Shown here: positions 42,329-47,498 of the stretch, piece by piece
How the letters are laid out: each line of letters begins with the position of its first letter
Numbering within the stretch: position 1 is the stretch's first letter
Source of the DNA: Hoeflea prorocentri
Lineage (GTDB): Bacteria; Pseudomonadota; Alphaproteobacteria; Rhizobiales; Rhizobiaceae
Assembly (NCBI RefSeq): GCF_027944115.1
Contig: NZ_JAPJZI010000001.1
Coordinates: 3,472,001-3,536,000 of the forward strand
Reading direction: 5' to 3'
Length of the DNA stretch: 64,000 nucleotides
Translations under genes and position numbers: made by a program
The notes under the pieces: model-generated
Seen by the model: only the letters and a program-made list of their open reading frames with translations
What the model was told of the DNA's origin: nothing
Database searches by the model: none

Positions 42329-43246
42329 TCAGAAATTCGGTGGTGTCCTACCCGCGTGGCGGTAGGCTGAAACCAGCGTGTTGGCCATGAGCATGGCGAT
42401 CGTCATCGGTCCGACACCGCCGGGCACCGGGGTGATCGCGCCGGCAACTTTTGCGCATTCGCCATAGGCCACATCGCCCACAAGGCGCGTCTTACCCTCG
42501 CCGCGCTCCGGCGCAGCGATCCGGTTTATACCCACGTCGATGATCGTGGCGCCCGGCTTGACCCAGTCGCCTTTGATCATTTCGGGCCGGCCAACGGCGG
42601 CGACCAGAATATCGGCATTGCGGCAGGCGGCCGGCAGATCAGGCGTCCGGCTGTGTGCGACCGTCACCGTGGCATTTGCGGCCAGGAGCAAGCTCGCCAT
42701 GGGTTTGCCGACAATATTCGAACGCCCGACGACAACGGCGTTAAGACCTGAGAGATCCTTGCCCCGGACCCGCTCGATGAGCAGCGTGGACCCGGCCGGC
42801 GTGCAGGGTACAAAGGCCGTTTCCACTTCACCCGTTGTCAGTTTGCCGGCGTTGATAACATGAAAACCGTCCACATCCTTTTGCGGATTGATCGCCTGGA
42901 TGACACGGCCGTCATCGATGTGGCCGGGCAATGGAAGCTGCACGAGAATGCCGTGGATTTGCGGGTCGTCGTTCAGCTCTTCCACCAGCGCCAGAAGGTC
43001 TGCCTCGCTGGTTGAATCGGCCAGCGTGTGCTGCACGGAATGAAAGCCGCATTCCTTGGCCTTCTTGCCTTTGGAGGCGACATAGACCTTGCTTGCCGGA
43101 TCTTCCCCGACAATCACGACGGCAATACCGGGAATGACCCCGGTTTGCTGTTTCAGTTCTTCCGCCGCCTGCTTGACGGTTTCAACCACACTATCGGCGA
43201 CGGACCGTCCGTCGATAACCGCTGCATCCTGCATCTGTGCTGTCAT
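42329..43246 (-). CDS. folD: Bifunctional methylenetetrahydrofolate dehydrogenase/methenyltetrahydrofolate cyclohydrolase
   Basis: Interconverts 5,10-methylene- and 10-formyl-tetrahydrofolate with NADP+. A 305-residue Fol[16 protein letters not shown] carries the catalytic Lys, with [47 protein letters not shown] and [14 protein letters not shown] following. GGAG lies eight bases before ATG 43246; the frame is open to 43438. Convergent with edd, 12 bases between stops. Upstream spacer 43247-43590 contains hairpins only. Confidence 0.96.
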
Positions 43247-43404
43247 CTGCCGTGCTCCAACTCGCAATTTCCAGATTTCTGTGCGCCTTCTAGAGCATAT
43301 ACGGAAGCAATGAAAAGGCCCGTTCGCGCCGTAAGGCGTCAAATCCGTAATGTGGTTCGGCAAAAGAGCCGCATTGCACCCACGATTCTGCGGGACACTC
43401 AGAA

Positions 43405-43440
43405 CTGTGCCGGCAAGCAGGGAGAGGCTCGCCGGCACAG
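43405..43440. repeat. Hairpin in the 344-base spacer upstream of folD
   Basis: CTGTGCCGGC, 16-base loop, GCCGGCACAG: ten perfect pairs. No T run on either side. The spacer 43247-43590 has no supported gene; it holds this hairpin, the two next to the hfaD-like stop and, presumably, the folD promoter. Confidence 0.6.
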
Positions 43441-43590: not shown

Positions 43591-44961
43591 CTAGTTGATC
43601 GACGATAGCGAAACCGCCGAAGCAGCGCCAACCGCTGAGATCGAAACCGAGGCACCGGCACCGCTGATCGACCCCGTGTTGATCGTCGCCGCCCGATTTG
43701 TCACAGCCGCATTGTTGAGCGATGCCTGATTGACCGCGCCGATCGTCGGTGAACCAAACGCTTGCGCCTCGTTGATGCTCGTGACCGCAACGGACGAGAC
43801 GGCACCGGTCGCCCCGATCGAGGCCGATGCGCCACGACCGTTGATGGTGCCAGCAGAAATGGTGTGGCGGGCAATCGTGGTTCCGTTCGATCCGACACCG
43901 CCATTGGTGACAACACCGTCATTTTGCGTACGCTGGGTGATCAATCCCATCGTGATGGACGGCGTGCCGTTGATGCCGCTGCTGTTGATGCTCGTGACCG
44001 AGACGGACGAGGCGGCACCGGTCGCAGATACGCTGACCGACGCGCCGTTTCCTGAGATGGCGCCGACATTCAGAACGCCACCGGCATTGCGCGACGTGCC
44101 CTGATGGTTGTTGCGCACCGCACCGCCGCTATTGGTCGTCGTCTGACCGATATTGCCGATGGACAGATTGTCGATCTCGGCTGCGCCGATATGGCTGGAC
44201 GAGACAGACGAAACCGCACCAAGAGCGGAAATCGAGGCCGACGCGCCCGCCCCGCTGACGGCGAGTGGGCTTGCATTCGAGAATGCGCCGAAATTGCTGA
44301 CATCGCTGCCGGTTGTGAGGGTTGTCCTCTGGCTGATATTGGCAACGCTCAGATCACCGCCGCTGCCCGGCTGCGCACGGGTATTGGCGACGGACGATGC
44401 CGCACCTGTCGCCGAAACCGAAGCCGCGGCGCCGAGACCGGTCAATCCGGTAGCGGATATACGGCTTGACCGGTTGCTTCCATTCGTCACGTCGGCATTG
44501 TTCGTCGCATTTTGAGTGATGCTTGACAGATCGACATCGGAAAACGTGTTGGAACCGATACCGGTTACCGAGACAGCCGAAACCGCACCTGATGCGGAGA
44601 CGGAAGCGGACGCACCTGCGCCGCTGATGGTTGACGACACATCAACCGTGCCACCGCCATTGACGACGACGCCGTTGTTGCTGCTTGTCTGTGAGATATT
44701 GCCGAACCCGCCGGCCGGCGTGACATAATCAGCGCCGATCCCGAGGACACTGACGGACGATGCCGCCCCCGTCGCCGAGATGGACGCACTCGAACCTGCT
44801 CCGCTGAGCGAACCGTTGATATCAACGCTTTGCCCCGTGGACTGGGTGACAGTGTTGTTGTTGGTGTTGGATTGGGTTACGGCAGTTTGCGCGAAAGCGC
44901 CTGATACTCCAGCCAGCATCGCAGCCATGGCGACACCAGCGACCAAACTGGTCTTACACAT
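43591..44961 (-). CDS. Repetitive secreted surface protein, HfaD-like
   Basis: A 456-residue exported protein: signal peptide to about residue 25 (CKTSLVAGVAMAAMLAGVSGAFA), then seven imperfect repeats of 59-71 residues. Each repeat has a Q/N-rich strand of the type ISQTSSNNGVVVNGG followed by SGAGASASISATGAVSSVSV; the SGAG element begins near residues 53, 113, 174, 236, 303, 374 and 433. Almost no charged residues or cysteines after the signal, consistent with a beta-solenoid or amyloid-like fibre. Holdfast anchor HfaD of Caulobacter has a comparable nature, and the two genes upstream resemble HfaB and HfaA. GAGGAG lies eight bases before ATG 44961. Confidence 0.72.
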   Translation of the reverse strand: MCKTSLVAGVAMAAMLAGVSGAFAQTAVTQSNTNNNTVTQSTGQSVDINGSLSGAGSSASISATGAASSVSVLGIGADYVTPAGGFGNISQTSSNNGVVVNGGGTVDVSSTISGAGASASVSASGAVSAVSVTGIGSNTFSDVDLSSITQNATNNADVTNGSNRSSRISATGLTGLGAAASVSATGAASSVANTRAQPGSGGDLSVANISQRTTLTTGSDVSNFGAFSNASPLAVSGAGASASISALGAVSSVSSSHIGAAEIDNLSIGNIGQTTTNSGGAVRNNHQGTSRNAGGVLNVGAISGNGASVSVSATGAASSVSVTSINSSGINGTPSITMGLITQRTQNDGVVTNGGVGSNGTTIARHTISAGTINGRGASASIGATGAVSSVAVTSINEAQAFGSPTIGAVNQASLNNAAVTNRAATINTGSISGAGASVSISAVGAASAVSLSSIN

Positions 44962-45471
44962 TGCAGTTCTCCTCGCACGCGCATCATGCGCGCCACTCAA
45001 TTCGAACCATGCCATCCGTCCAAGCCCGCTGACCTGCCGCATACGCGACCGGCGCGACGCTTGACCCGGATCACACAACGCCGTCTCTTCACATGCGAGC
45101 GCGTTGCTTCGACATAGCCCAGGCACACGCGGTCAGATCGTTCCGAGCGCCGACTGCTGGCGCTCCGATCTCACCACCAAAACCCAACCGGCCGTTTCTG
45201 CTCCTTTGATCGTCAGTACAGACTGCGTGGTGTCGAAGGTCTGCGAACGGAGTTCATTCTCCGCCTCGCAGCACCGCGGGTCACCTATCCACAACCTGCT
45301 CGTCCGGTTCGGCGCGGGAGACTAAATACGAAACTGTTGAAATTTGCGTTAATTGGCAAAAATTAGTATGTGAAAATTTTCTCTTCATGGTTGAAATAAT
45401 ATAAACAGGGGTGAACCCTTGAAACGTGGCGTTCCCACATGCTGATCCGCATGCGTGAAGTGCCGTCCGGG
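44962..45471. other. 510-base spacer between the hfaB- and hfaD-like genes
   Basis: No supported gene. The section 45310-45420 is strongly AT-rich, unlike its surroundings, and would suit a separate promoter for the hfaD-like gene on the minus strand. The rest, up to the start codon, would be a leader of up to 350 bases containing the bulged hairpin at 45135-45171. Confidence 0.5.
45135..45171 (-). other. Bulged hairpin in the hfaD-like leader
   Basis: AGATCG-ttcc-GAGCGCC, loop GACTGCT, GGCGCTC-CGATCT: thirteen pairs in two blocks, with a four-base bulge on one side. It lies about 175 bases before the hfaD-like start and is not followed by a T run, so an RNA-level role in the leader is possible. 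Confidence 0.4.
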
Positions 45472-46275
45472 CTAGACGGATGCGTCGAGAAGGTCGCCGA
45501 CCATTCCCCTGCAACTTGCTGCCGCTCTCGGGAATTCCTTCATGACGACATCGGCCACGCCAAGCGCGATCGGGCCGTTCAGAGCTTCAAGCTGCAGACG
45601 TTCCTGGCTTTGAAACGCTATGTTTCCGGATGCCAGCGTGTTGCCGAATGTGCGGCCCACACCCGCACCGATCTGCGTATAACGGACCGGGCGCTGGATC
45701 ATGCTCATCTGCCTGTTGACGCGCGTCGCTGAGCGGTCGAGCTGAATCGAAAGACTAAGCTGGGCCCATCCGATCCCGACCGTCGGGCCGACGCCGGCAA
45801 CGCGGATATCGGATTTGACCGGAAGGCTGAAATCGAGACTGTTGAAGATCCCGTTGACCGCATAATCGGTCGGCACGGCCTTCGCAGGAGCACCGAAATA
45901 GGTCGACACCACCGTCGCACCGGCCTTCGACAGTGAATCTGTCACATAGGCCGCGCTGCCTCCCTGAGGCAGGAAATTGCCGGTTGCGCCGGAGGCCACG
46001 GCATTGATCTTGCCCGTGCTGTCGGCAAAGCTGCCGACAACAAAGGTTTTGTTTTTCAGGACACCGGTCTTTTTGATGCAGGCGAGCGTGTTTTCAATGC
46101 GGGTATAGGTCTGGACCTTCGTCGGCAACGGTGCCTGCGTCACCGGCACAGCCGCAGGTCTGTCTACCTCGCCGCTCCGTGGAAGCGTACAGGAGGCAAC
46201 GCCCACAAGCACGGGCCAAAGGACAAACATATTCCCGCGCCCCGCTACTTTACGCAATACAGACAAGATACCCAT
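45472..46275 (-). CDS. CsgG/HfaB-like outer-membrane secretion lipoprotein
   Basis: A 267-residue lipoprotein: the signal ends in GVASC, a lipobox-like VASC. The mature part resembles the CsgG family, whose members form the outer-membrane pore for curli (CsgG) or holdfast-anchor proteins (HfaB): FVVGSFADSTGKINAVASGATGNFLPQGGSAAYVTDSLSKAGATVV, then VNGIFNSLDF and ADVVMKEFP at the end. No CsgE or CsgF genes are near, which favours HfaB over curli CsgG. GTGGGAG precedes ATG 46275. It lies 48 bases downstream of the small hfaA-like gene and upstream of the repetitive hfaD-like gene, the same order as hfaABD in Caulobacter. Confidence 0.78.
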   Translation of the reverse strand: MGILSVLRKVAGRGNMFVLWPVLVGVASCTLPRSGEVDRPAAVPVTQAPLPTKVQTYTRIENTLACIKKTGVLKNKTFVVGSFADSTGKINAVASGATGNFLPQGGSAAYVTDSLSKAGATVVSTYFGAPAKAVPTDYAVNGIFNSLDFSLPVKSDIRVAGVGPTVGIGWAQLSLSIQLDRSATRVNRQMSMIQRPVRYTQIGAGVGRTFGNTLASGNIAFQSQERLQLEALNGPIALGVADVVMKEFPRAAASCRGMVGDLLDASV

Positions 46276-46323
46276 TTACTCCCACCTGGCTCAATGATTT
46301 CAAGTCCGCCGAGGTGCCCGGCG

Positions 46324-46692
46324 TCATCTGCTGTTTATCTCTCCATCGTTGGTGACATCACCTGAATTGGTGCTCGTTTGGTCCGCCGCTATATCTGAAA
46401 CGTTGTTGTTGCCGACAATCGACGTCGTGACGACCGTCTGACTGCCGATGGCCTGGATCGTCAGGGTTCCCGCGGTCCCGTTGTCGATGAGAAGACCCAT
46501 TTCGGCCGCGTTCACCTGCCCGGCGATTATGCCATTGGCCAGATGCGATTCCGCTGAATCCACCGCGCCGCCCACGGCAACCCCGGAACCGTCGGTCCCC
46601 CACATATTACCCGCCGAAAAGCCAATATTGTCAGCAAGTGCTTCACCGGCAATCAAAAAGGCTGCCGCTGCCAAGACAATGGAATTTTTCAC
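46324..46692 (-). CDS. Small curlin-like secreted protein, HfaA-like
   Basis: A 122-residue exported protein with a signal peptide to about residue 20 (IVLAAAAFLIAGEALA). The mature protein is Gly/Asn/Ser/Thr-rich, with curlin-like strands TIQAIGSQTVVTTSIVGNNNVSDIAADQTSTNSGDVTNDG. Caulobacter HfaA is a similar small exported protein that forms detergent-resistant, amyloid-like multimers at the holdfast. GTG start at 46692 with GGGGTAGG upstream. First gene of the hfa-like set; 296 bases separate it from the flagellar genes, with an AT-rich centre and an inverted repeat. Confidence 0.68.
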   Translation of the reverse strand: MKNSIVLAAAAFLIAGEALADNIGFSAGNMWGTDGSGVAVGGAVDSAESHLANGIIAGQVNAAEMGLLIDNGTAGTLTIQAIGSQTVVTTSIVGNNNVSDIAADQTSTNSGDVTNDGEINSR

Positions 46693-46988: not shown

Positions 46989-47498
46989 CTAGTTGCTCTC
47001 GCCGACTGTCTTCGGCGGCGGCGGCGGAAGGCGACGCCTGCGTTCCCGATCACGAATCTCTGCCTTGGTGATAAACTCCATCTGCTCCACCAGAACTTCG
47101 TGAAACACTTTGCGGCCAAGTTTCTCGTTCAGACCGTCACGCACGACAGCACGGAAGGCTTCAAGATCAAATTCCTCGACACGGGAAAAGTCTATAACCC
47201 GATTACCGACAAGAAGGGTGTAGAGCTGATCGGTGATCAGCACATGAGGCGGCAAGGTCAGTGAATTGAGCACTTCCGGCTCAGCCGTATAAACAAGCCT
47301 GGTGATAAAGTAGCCGCGAACCTGGCCTTCAAAAATGGCAGGAATTGAGATCAGGTCGGAGCGCACATAATCCAGCCCGCCGAAAAAGTCCGCCTGCTCC
47401 TGTGTCTCCACCGGTTTCGACGCCGTCTGCAGGGCAAAATAAACCGAGGCAAGCGTGACACCGCAAATCCACACACCCGTGATGACCAGTTTGATCAT
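46989..47498 (-). CDS. Membrane-anchored protein, FliL-like (tentative)
   Basis: A 169-residue protein with one N-terminal membrane helix (LVITGVWICGVTLASVYFAL) and a periplasmic domain. Its pattern is FliL-like: a strand region with VRGYFITRLVYTAEPEVL, ITDQLYTLLVGN, then EAFRAVVRDGLNEKLGRKVFHEVLVEQMEFITKAEI, as in the FliL C-terminal domain that sits around the motor. The C-terminal tail RRRRLPPPPPKT is unusual. Starts inside the stop of the FlgN-like gene (ATGA overlap). Last gene of the flagellar locus in this window; rhizobial homologues are annotated only as hypothetical. Call is by pattern, not by alignment. Confidence 0.6.
   Translation of the reverse strand: MIKLVITGVWICGVTLASVYFALQTASKPVETQEQADFFGGLDYVRSDLISIPAIFEGQVRGYFITRLVYTAEPEVLNSLTLPPHVLITDQLYTLLVGNRVIDFSRVEEFDLEAFRAVVRDGLNEKLGRKVFHEVLVEQMEFITKAEIRDRERRRRLPPPPPKTVGESN

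Follow-up and report, generated by a model that had tools for sequence, protein, structure and literature searches.

Few amyloid exporters are understood as well as pores of the CsgG type, and in the curli system CsgB and CsgA share a motif. The relevant portions of PMC3521004 place CsgG in a larger family and report that csgE and csgF are missing in about half of the curli-bearing genera among Alphaproteobacteria, whereas portions of PMC6707917 and PMC6372794 describe the Hfa proteins. Here, we analyzed a cluster of 3 genes, designated A, G, and D, in a 64,000-nucleotide stretch of the Hoeflea prorocentri genome (contig NZ_JAPJZI010000001.1, positions 3,472,001 to 3,536,000; hereafter, the window), which shares with the HfaABD system of Caulobacter the order small exported protein, CsgG-like lipoprotein, and larger exported protein. 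The most likely role of the cluster is CsgG-like export of a surface adhesin, and we consider it probable, although well short of certain, that A, G, and D constitute an export cluster of the CsgG/HfaB type, with the exported A and D assembling outside the cell as an adhesive fiber or coat. This reading rests on the superfamily membership of G, the conserved gene order, a strand motif common to A and D, and purifying selection on all 3 genes. No description of the cluster was found in the titles and abstract openings of the literature, mostly non-subscription, on CsgG and curli, on Hfa proteins in Rhizobiales and Alphaproteobacteria, and on Nitratireductor. The cluster comprises the following features:

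46324..46692, minus strand: A, small exported protein of 122 amino acids (aa), with a GTG start, a signal peptide recognized by inspection, and a C-terminal strand motif that seems to be that of the D repeats
45472..46275, minus strand: G, CsgG/HfaB-superfamily lipoprotein of 267 aa, with a profile match to the HfaB alignment
44962..45471, no strand: gap of 510 bp between G and D
43591..44961, minus strand: D, exported repeat protein of 456 aa from the ATG at 44961, with seven repeats of ~60 aa

The affiliation of G emerged from profile comparisons. A profile built from 10 sequences of the window clade matched an alignment of 23 HfaB-family sequences at an expectation value (E) of 8e-12 over 230 columns, whereas the 7 controls, 1 reversed and 6 column-shuffled, gave E of 0.037-0.75. 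The HfaB-family set was assembled by searching 289 genomes of the class with the NCBIfam HfaB model, which matched in 31 genomes, 15 of them over the cut-off; 30 loci (L025-L054) were fetched, and the HfaB-family alignment comprises 23 of them (14 over the HfaB cut-off and 9 below), leaving aside L038, L049, and L050, which yielded no open reading frame (ORF), and the weak L051-L054, with the starts of L031, L032, L035, and L036 shortened. The alignments A1 and A2 of G relatives likewise omit L014/L068 (the same gene as that of Nitratireductor XY-223, L001), L011/L013 (where unread bases interrupt the gene), and L022 and L023, which are weak. Distant relatives connect the groups: a bridging alignment of 6 of them (L016-L021) matched the window clade at E 4e-27 and HfaB at E 1e-33. 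The HfaB-family alignment matched E. coli CsgG at E 1e-16, and the window clade supplemented with 7 distant relatives did so at E 1e-5. Of the 6 matches that the latter profile had among PDB sequences, the top 5 were to CsgG, although weak (E 0.013-0.018), with the C-terminal half of CsgG aligned at E 0.013 only; a phmmer search of PDB sequences with G itself yielded no match. The Pfam CsgG model matched 5/17 members of A1 at E<=1 (best 3.8e-13), whereas the NCBIfam HfaB model scored 16 bits on G (E 0.005), missing its cut-off of 300 bits. In the phylogenetic tree, the 10 rows of the window clade formed a group (support 98/99) apart from the HfaB-family rows and from CsgG, in the vicinity of a rhizobial HfaB-like clade, its deeper placement being unsure because of long branches. 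Given the profile match, the links through distant relatives, and the separate clade, G is best regarded as a remote but genuine, divergent member of the CsgG/HfaB superfamily and not as an HfaB equivalog. Thus, the CsgG-like character that a preliminary description of the window had ascribed to the 267-residue protein is upheld, but its equation with HfaB proper is not, the window clade falling outside NCBIfam's HfaB.

The 3 genes have been maintained as a unit, as the preliminary description implied. The order A-G-D was kept in 11/11 distinct loci found for the clade, including the window and with one count per genome; since relatives of all 3 genes recur in the same order in 10 further distinct loci, the arrangement reflects more than chance. 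A, G, and D are real genes under purifying selection: between the window and Nitratireductor XY-223, codon third positions account for 63/100 (A), 134/197 (G), and 235/445 (D) of the differences, and the ratios of nonsynonymous to synonymous substitution rates (dN/dS) are 0.11, 0.08, and 0.23, respectively, compared with 0.04 for flhA, ratios that are to be taken as rough because dS, at 1.2-1.5 for A, G, and D, exceeds that of flhA (0.87). The cluster may have been acquired separately. The distribution of G is narrow. Relatives at 65-83% identity were present at 7 loci among 45 candidate stretches; at the order level, 5/297 genomes had a match, including the window's own genome and one chance hit, and at the family level 11/394 genomes had one, the window's own included and nine of them distant. 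Within the genus of the window, 2/8 genomes carry G. A tblastn search of a plasmid collection yielded no match, and the weak match in genome G271 (E 8e-4) was dismissed as chance in view of the remaining ORFs at its locus (L012).

As proposed in the preliminary description, all 3 ORFs lie on the minus strand, and the signal peptides of A and D and the lipobox of G (VASC) were confirmed by inspection. The lipobox cysteine, Cys29, is invariant in 17/17 aligned relatives, as are Cys66 and Cys255. D read from its first GTG would span 43591-45126 (511 aa), but the ATG at 44961 is the better start, being accompanied by an AGGAG-type ribosome-binding site and the signal peptide. The seven repeats of D, spaced by 60, 61, 62, 67, 71, and 59 aa, conform to a consensus derived from 69 repeats of 13 proteins (excluding the second D of L002, which is in the wrong frame, and the D of L005), in which a strand Q-T-x-x-N-N-G-x-V-x-N is followed by S-G-x-G-A-S-x-S-x-S-A-x-G-A. 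D is rich in S, A, G, T, V, and N, and the mature protein contains 19.5% S, 14.8% A, and 14.6% G, with one Tyr and neither Cys nor Trp. A and G are separated by 48 bp; the gap between G and D, 510 bp in the window, measures ~520 bp in XY-223 and ~33 bp in L002. D may have its own promoter; a promoter and terminator scan remained at chance level, with no consensus site in the G-D gap.

The preliminary description had linked the cluster to hfaA, hfaB, and hfaD on the basis of gene order and protein character; the identity of A and D as HfaA and HfaD was not borne out. The alignment of A proteins (A3) matched an HfaA alignment, composed of 9 loci with an automatically found HfaA-like ORF, at E 0.005, compared with 0.029 for the reversed control and 0.23-0.77 for six shuffles. 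A also matched, at E 6e-6, one small protein whose gene precedes that of a distant relative of G (L018). When the D-repeat model was run against 31 ORFs that follow HfaB-family genes and are not all HfaD, the best domain, from a distant relative of the window clade (L015), scored 7.8 bits, whereas 651 shuffled or reversed controls reached 10.8. Hence, the similarity of D to HfaD candidates does not rise above controls, which does not disprove kinship itself. Neither A nor D showed detectable similarity to E. coli CsgA, CsgB, CsgE, or CsgF, the comparisons of A3 and of the D repeats with CsgA and CsgB being not significant, so that no curlin, CsgE, or CsgF identity was detected for either protein; the curlin repeat (PF07012) was absent from the genome, with a positive result for the E. 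coli control. Nonetheless, the two proteins appear to have a strand motif in common that is peculiar to them. All 10/10 A proteins scored above all 50 of their own shuffles with a hidden Markov model (HMM) of the D repeats, compared with 0/9 HfaA proteins, and in 7/10 A proteins the match fell on a C-terminal Q-T-x-x-N-x-G-x-V-x-N stretch. Such a common motif would suit 2 substrates of one pore.

Compared with HfaABD, the window cluster thus has the same gene order and a G homologous to HfaB, but differs in that G belongs to a separate clade, D is not detectably HfaD, and no hfs genes adjoin. The hfaABD-like cluster of the preliminary description accordingly stands as regards superfamily, gene order, and architecture, but not as regards the identity of hfaA and hfaD or polar placement; the cluster is probably the same kind of machine with its own lineage and substrates. 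The resemblance to curli lies in a CsgG-superfamily protein accompanied by 2 partners that have a common motif and are predicted to be exported, and the difference in the curlin repeat and the Csg partners, as described above. A further comparison is the HfaB-like sister clade within the same family (L016, L017, L019, L020, and L021), which is adjacent to the window clade in the tree and in which L017, L019, L020, and L021 have a small exported-looking gene upstream and an exported-looking gene downstream; the small and downstream proteins of the sister clade are, however, its own, and it is this clade that reaches HfaB strongly. In other Alphaproteobacteria, HfaB/CsgG-like genes (L043, L045-L048) are directly followed by exported-looking proteins ending in A-[IV]-G-N motifs, and the HfaB model matches five times in one genome (G692).

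The cluster is flanked by folD and by the end of a run of flagellar genes (FlhA, FliR, a rod-binding protein, and two small genes), its 2 borders being as follows:

46989..47498, minus strand: 169-aa gene that closes the flagellar run and has no Pfam family; marks one side of the insertion site
42329..43438, minus strand: folD; marks the opposite border of this site

Pfam recognized FlhA, FliR, the rod-binding protein, FlgK, and flagellin, confirming the flagellar surroundings reported previously. However, the flagellar neighborhood looks incidental. The stretch adjoining folD differs across the 8 genomes of the genus, which places A-G-D at a variable spot: the flagellar end and folD directly adjoin in G378 (an empty site), are separated by a Wzz/GNVR co-polymerase alone in G513, and flank a polysaccharide locus in G670 and G642, whereas in G566 and G606 a polysaccharide locus adjoins folD and the 169-aa flagellar-end gene was not found there. 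XY-223 has A-G-D plus a polysaccharide locus at the folD site, and the window has A-G-D alone. The polysaccharide locus at this spot (L001, L079, L100-L103; G454, G670, G642, G566, and G606; absent from the window and G378) contains GT2, GT4, WecG, DUF6492, flippase-like, and Wzz/GNVR genes, and GH10 in some. In agreement with the earlier statement that the window contains no hfs genes, no polysaccharide gene lies between the flagellar genes and folD, the stretch to which this finding applies, the remainder of the window not having been annotated for hfs. In tblastn searches of the nine loci at which the clade occurs beyond the genus (L002-L007, L065, L010, and L011, of which L010 and L011 are only 3.4-3.7 kb long), no match was obtained for FolD or for 14 proteins of the flagellar region of the window. 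Together with the presence of G in only some genomes of the genus, this weakens the proposed polar or flagellar link.

In several relatives, the cluster has other companions. A divergent LuxR response regulator and a kinase lie by the cluster in L002, L003, L004, and L006, the left flank of L005 being too short to judge; a second D-like gene follows D in the same 4 loci; and L002-L006 have in common a gene located downstream, whose L002 copy has a SPOR domain and whose L006 copy gave no SPOR match. This gene (L002:11732-12814, with homologs in L003-L006, downstream of the D genes) is suggestive, by its SPOR domain in L002, of a link to septal or polar peptidoglycan in these relatives. The window genome encodes a LuxR-kinase pair at 3.25 Mb of C1 (G000:C1:3247450-3250004, L113), with 49% and 30% identity to the L002 pair; it is unlinked, and the evidence is too little for it to be called the regulator of the cluster.

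In the mechanism that we favor, Sec would carry A and D over the inner membrane, G, lipid-anchored at the outer membrane, would form a ring-shaped pore, A and D would traverse it unfolded, and outside they would polymerize into a protein fiber or coat conferring adhesion. A, with one D-type strand motif, may act as nucleator or base and D, with seven repeats, as bulk subunit, a division of roles modeled on CsgB and CsgA or on HfaA and HfaD. Several observations weigh against this reading. Pfam CsgG matched neither the window protein nor anything else in the window genome, and with the window clade alone E. coli CsgG was not reached (E 0.087). Similarity between A and D in the strand motif is weak, with only 6/10 A proteins scoring above the best of 950 shuffles (9.4 bits) and the window's own A, at 3.6 bits, below it; in 3/10 A proteins the match lies elsewhere than at the C-terminal motif, and the 10 A proteins are mutually related. 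Furthermore, dS of the 3 genes is near saturation, and the export, pore, and fiber steps are ones that we infer.

An alternative is that A, G, and D form a true holdfast-type anchor, located at one pole and linking to the outer membrane a polar polysaccharide such as the unipolar polysaccharide (UPP), the role that HfaABD has in Caulobacter. The gene order and the homology of G to HfaB fit this explanation, as does the direct adjacency of the cluster in XY-223 to a polysaccharide locus (GT2, GT4, WecG, DUF6492, flippase-like, GH10, and Wzz/GNVR). With regard to the genome search for hfs genes suggested previously, the window genome has one Poly_export (Wza) match, at 1.41 Mb of C1 (G000:C1:1406545-1413807, L117), in a locus encoding Wza, Wzy, an initiating transferase, GT4, and Wzc, but the transferase, over the cut-off for WcaJ, scored 344 bits with HfsE against a cut-off of 750. 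As uppC is of the Wza type and uppE is an initiating transferase according to portions of PMC12727192, this locus is a candidate upp-like cluster, of the upp/hfs kind by composition. Nevertheless, the polysaccharide locus next to the cluster occurs without A-G-D in 4 sister genomes, and D is not recognizable as HfaD. Moreover, UPP is conserved in Rhizobiales, as stated in part of PMC9980756, whereas G is rare (11/394 family genomes) and the window has A-G-D without an adjoining polysaccharide locus; for these reasons, a protein-fiber adhesin is more likely than a general role as anchor. Polysaccharide anchoring by A-G-D is possible, but as an overall explanation we regard the holdfast-type anchor as unlikely. 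Somewhat better placed, if still doubtful, is a narrower form of the export-and-fiber reading, with which its chances overlap, namely a curli-like fiber system without polysaccharide link, controlled in some relatives by a dedicated pair of LuxR and histidine kinase and spread as a mobile module. The LuxR-kinase pairs, the common downstream gene, and the second D-like gene are consistent with it, and the patchy distribution and the empty site support the mobile module; however, no curlin repeat was found in the genome or detected in A or D, the window cluster has neither the regulator pair nor the downstream gene beside it, and the SPOR match is missing from the L006 copy.

Finally, G could be a periplasmic relative of the flagellar P-ring protein FlgI that serves the adjoining flagellum, which we consider very improbable. 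The G-clade profile matched 5 FlgI proteins (L059-L061, L063, and L064) at E 8e-7 over 80 columns with 36% identity, and the NCBIfam FlgI model matched 8/17 members at E<=1 and G itself at E 9e-4, far under the cut-off; flagellar neighbors are present. However, the five FlgI proteins came from a class-wide search with the same profile, so their choice was not independent, and the match is limited to residues 38-119 of G, whereas the HfaB match is whole-protein and stronger. HfaB did not match FlgI (0.12), the sister clade gave 0.006, and the loci outside the genus lack the window's flagellar genes. Given the partial FlgI match and the absence of those flagellar genes from these loci, flagellar function was rejected as the principal explanation. 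The FlgI-like segment of G (window 45919-46164) may reflect a shared fold, a borrowed segment, or convergence.

The cluster is a divergent, putative adhesin set missed by standard protein-family models, with no Pfam match and scores far under the NCBIfam cut-off, and it serves as a caution that, in relatives of rhizobia, systems of this sort escape the family cut-offs. Tentatively, and with slightly less than even confidence, we view it as an export system of Hyphomicrobiales that belongs to the CsgG superfamily and evolved separately, with its own substrates, namely a starter with one motif (A) and a protein with multiple repeats (D) that have a shared strand code, consisting of three genes without adjoining CsgE or CsgF and spread as a module, one host of which has an adjoining polysaccharide locus. 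If true, a version so compact, with three genes and different substrates, would reveal the minimal parts of a CsgG-type exporter, and the cluster would show which substrate signal the pore reads, the strand motif of A and D being a candidate.

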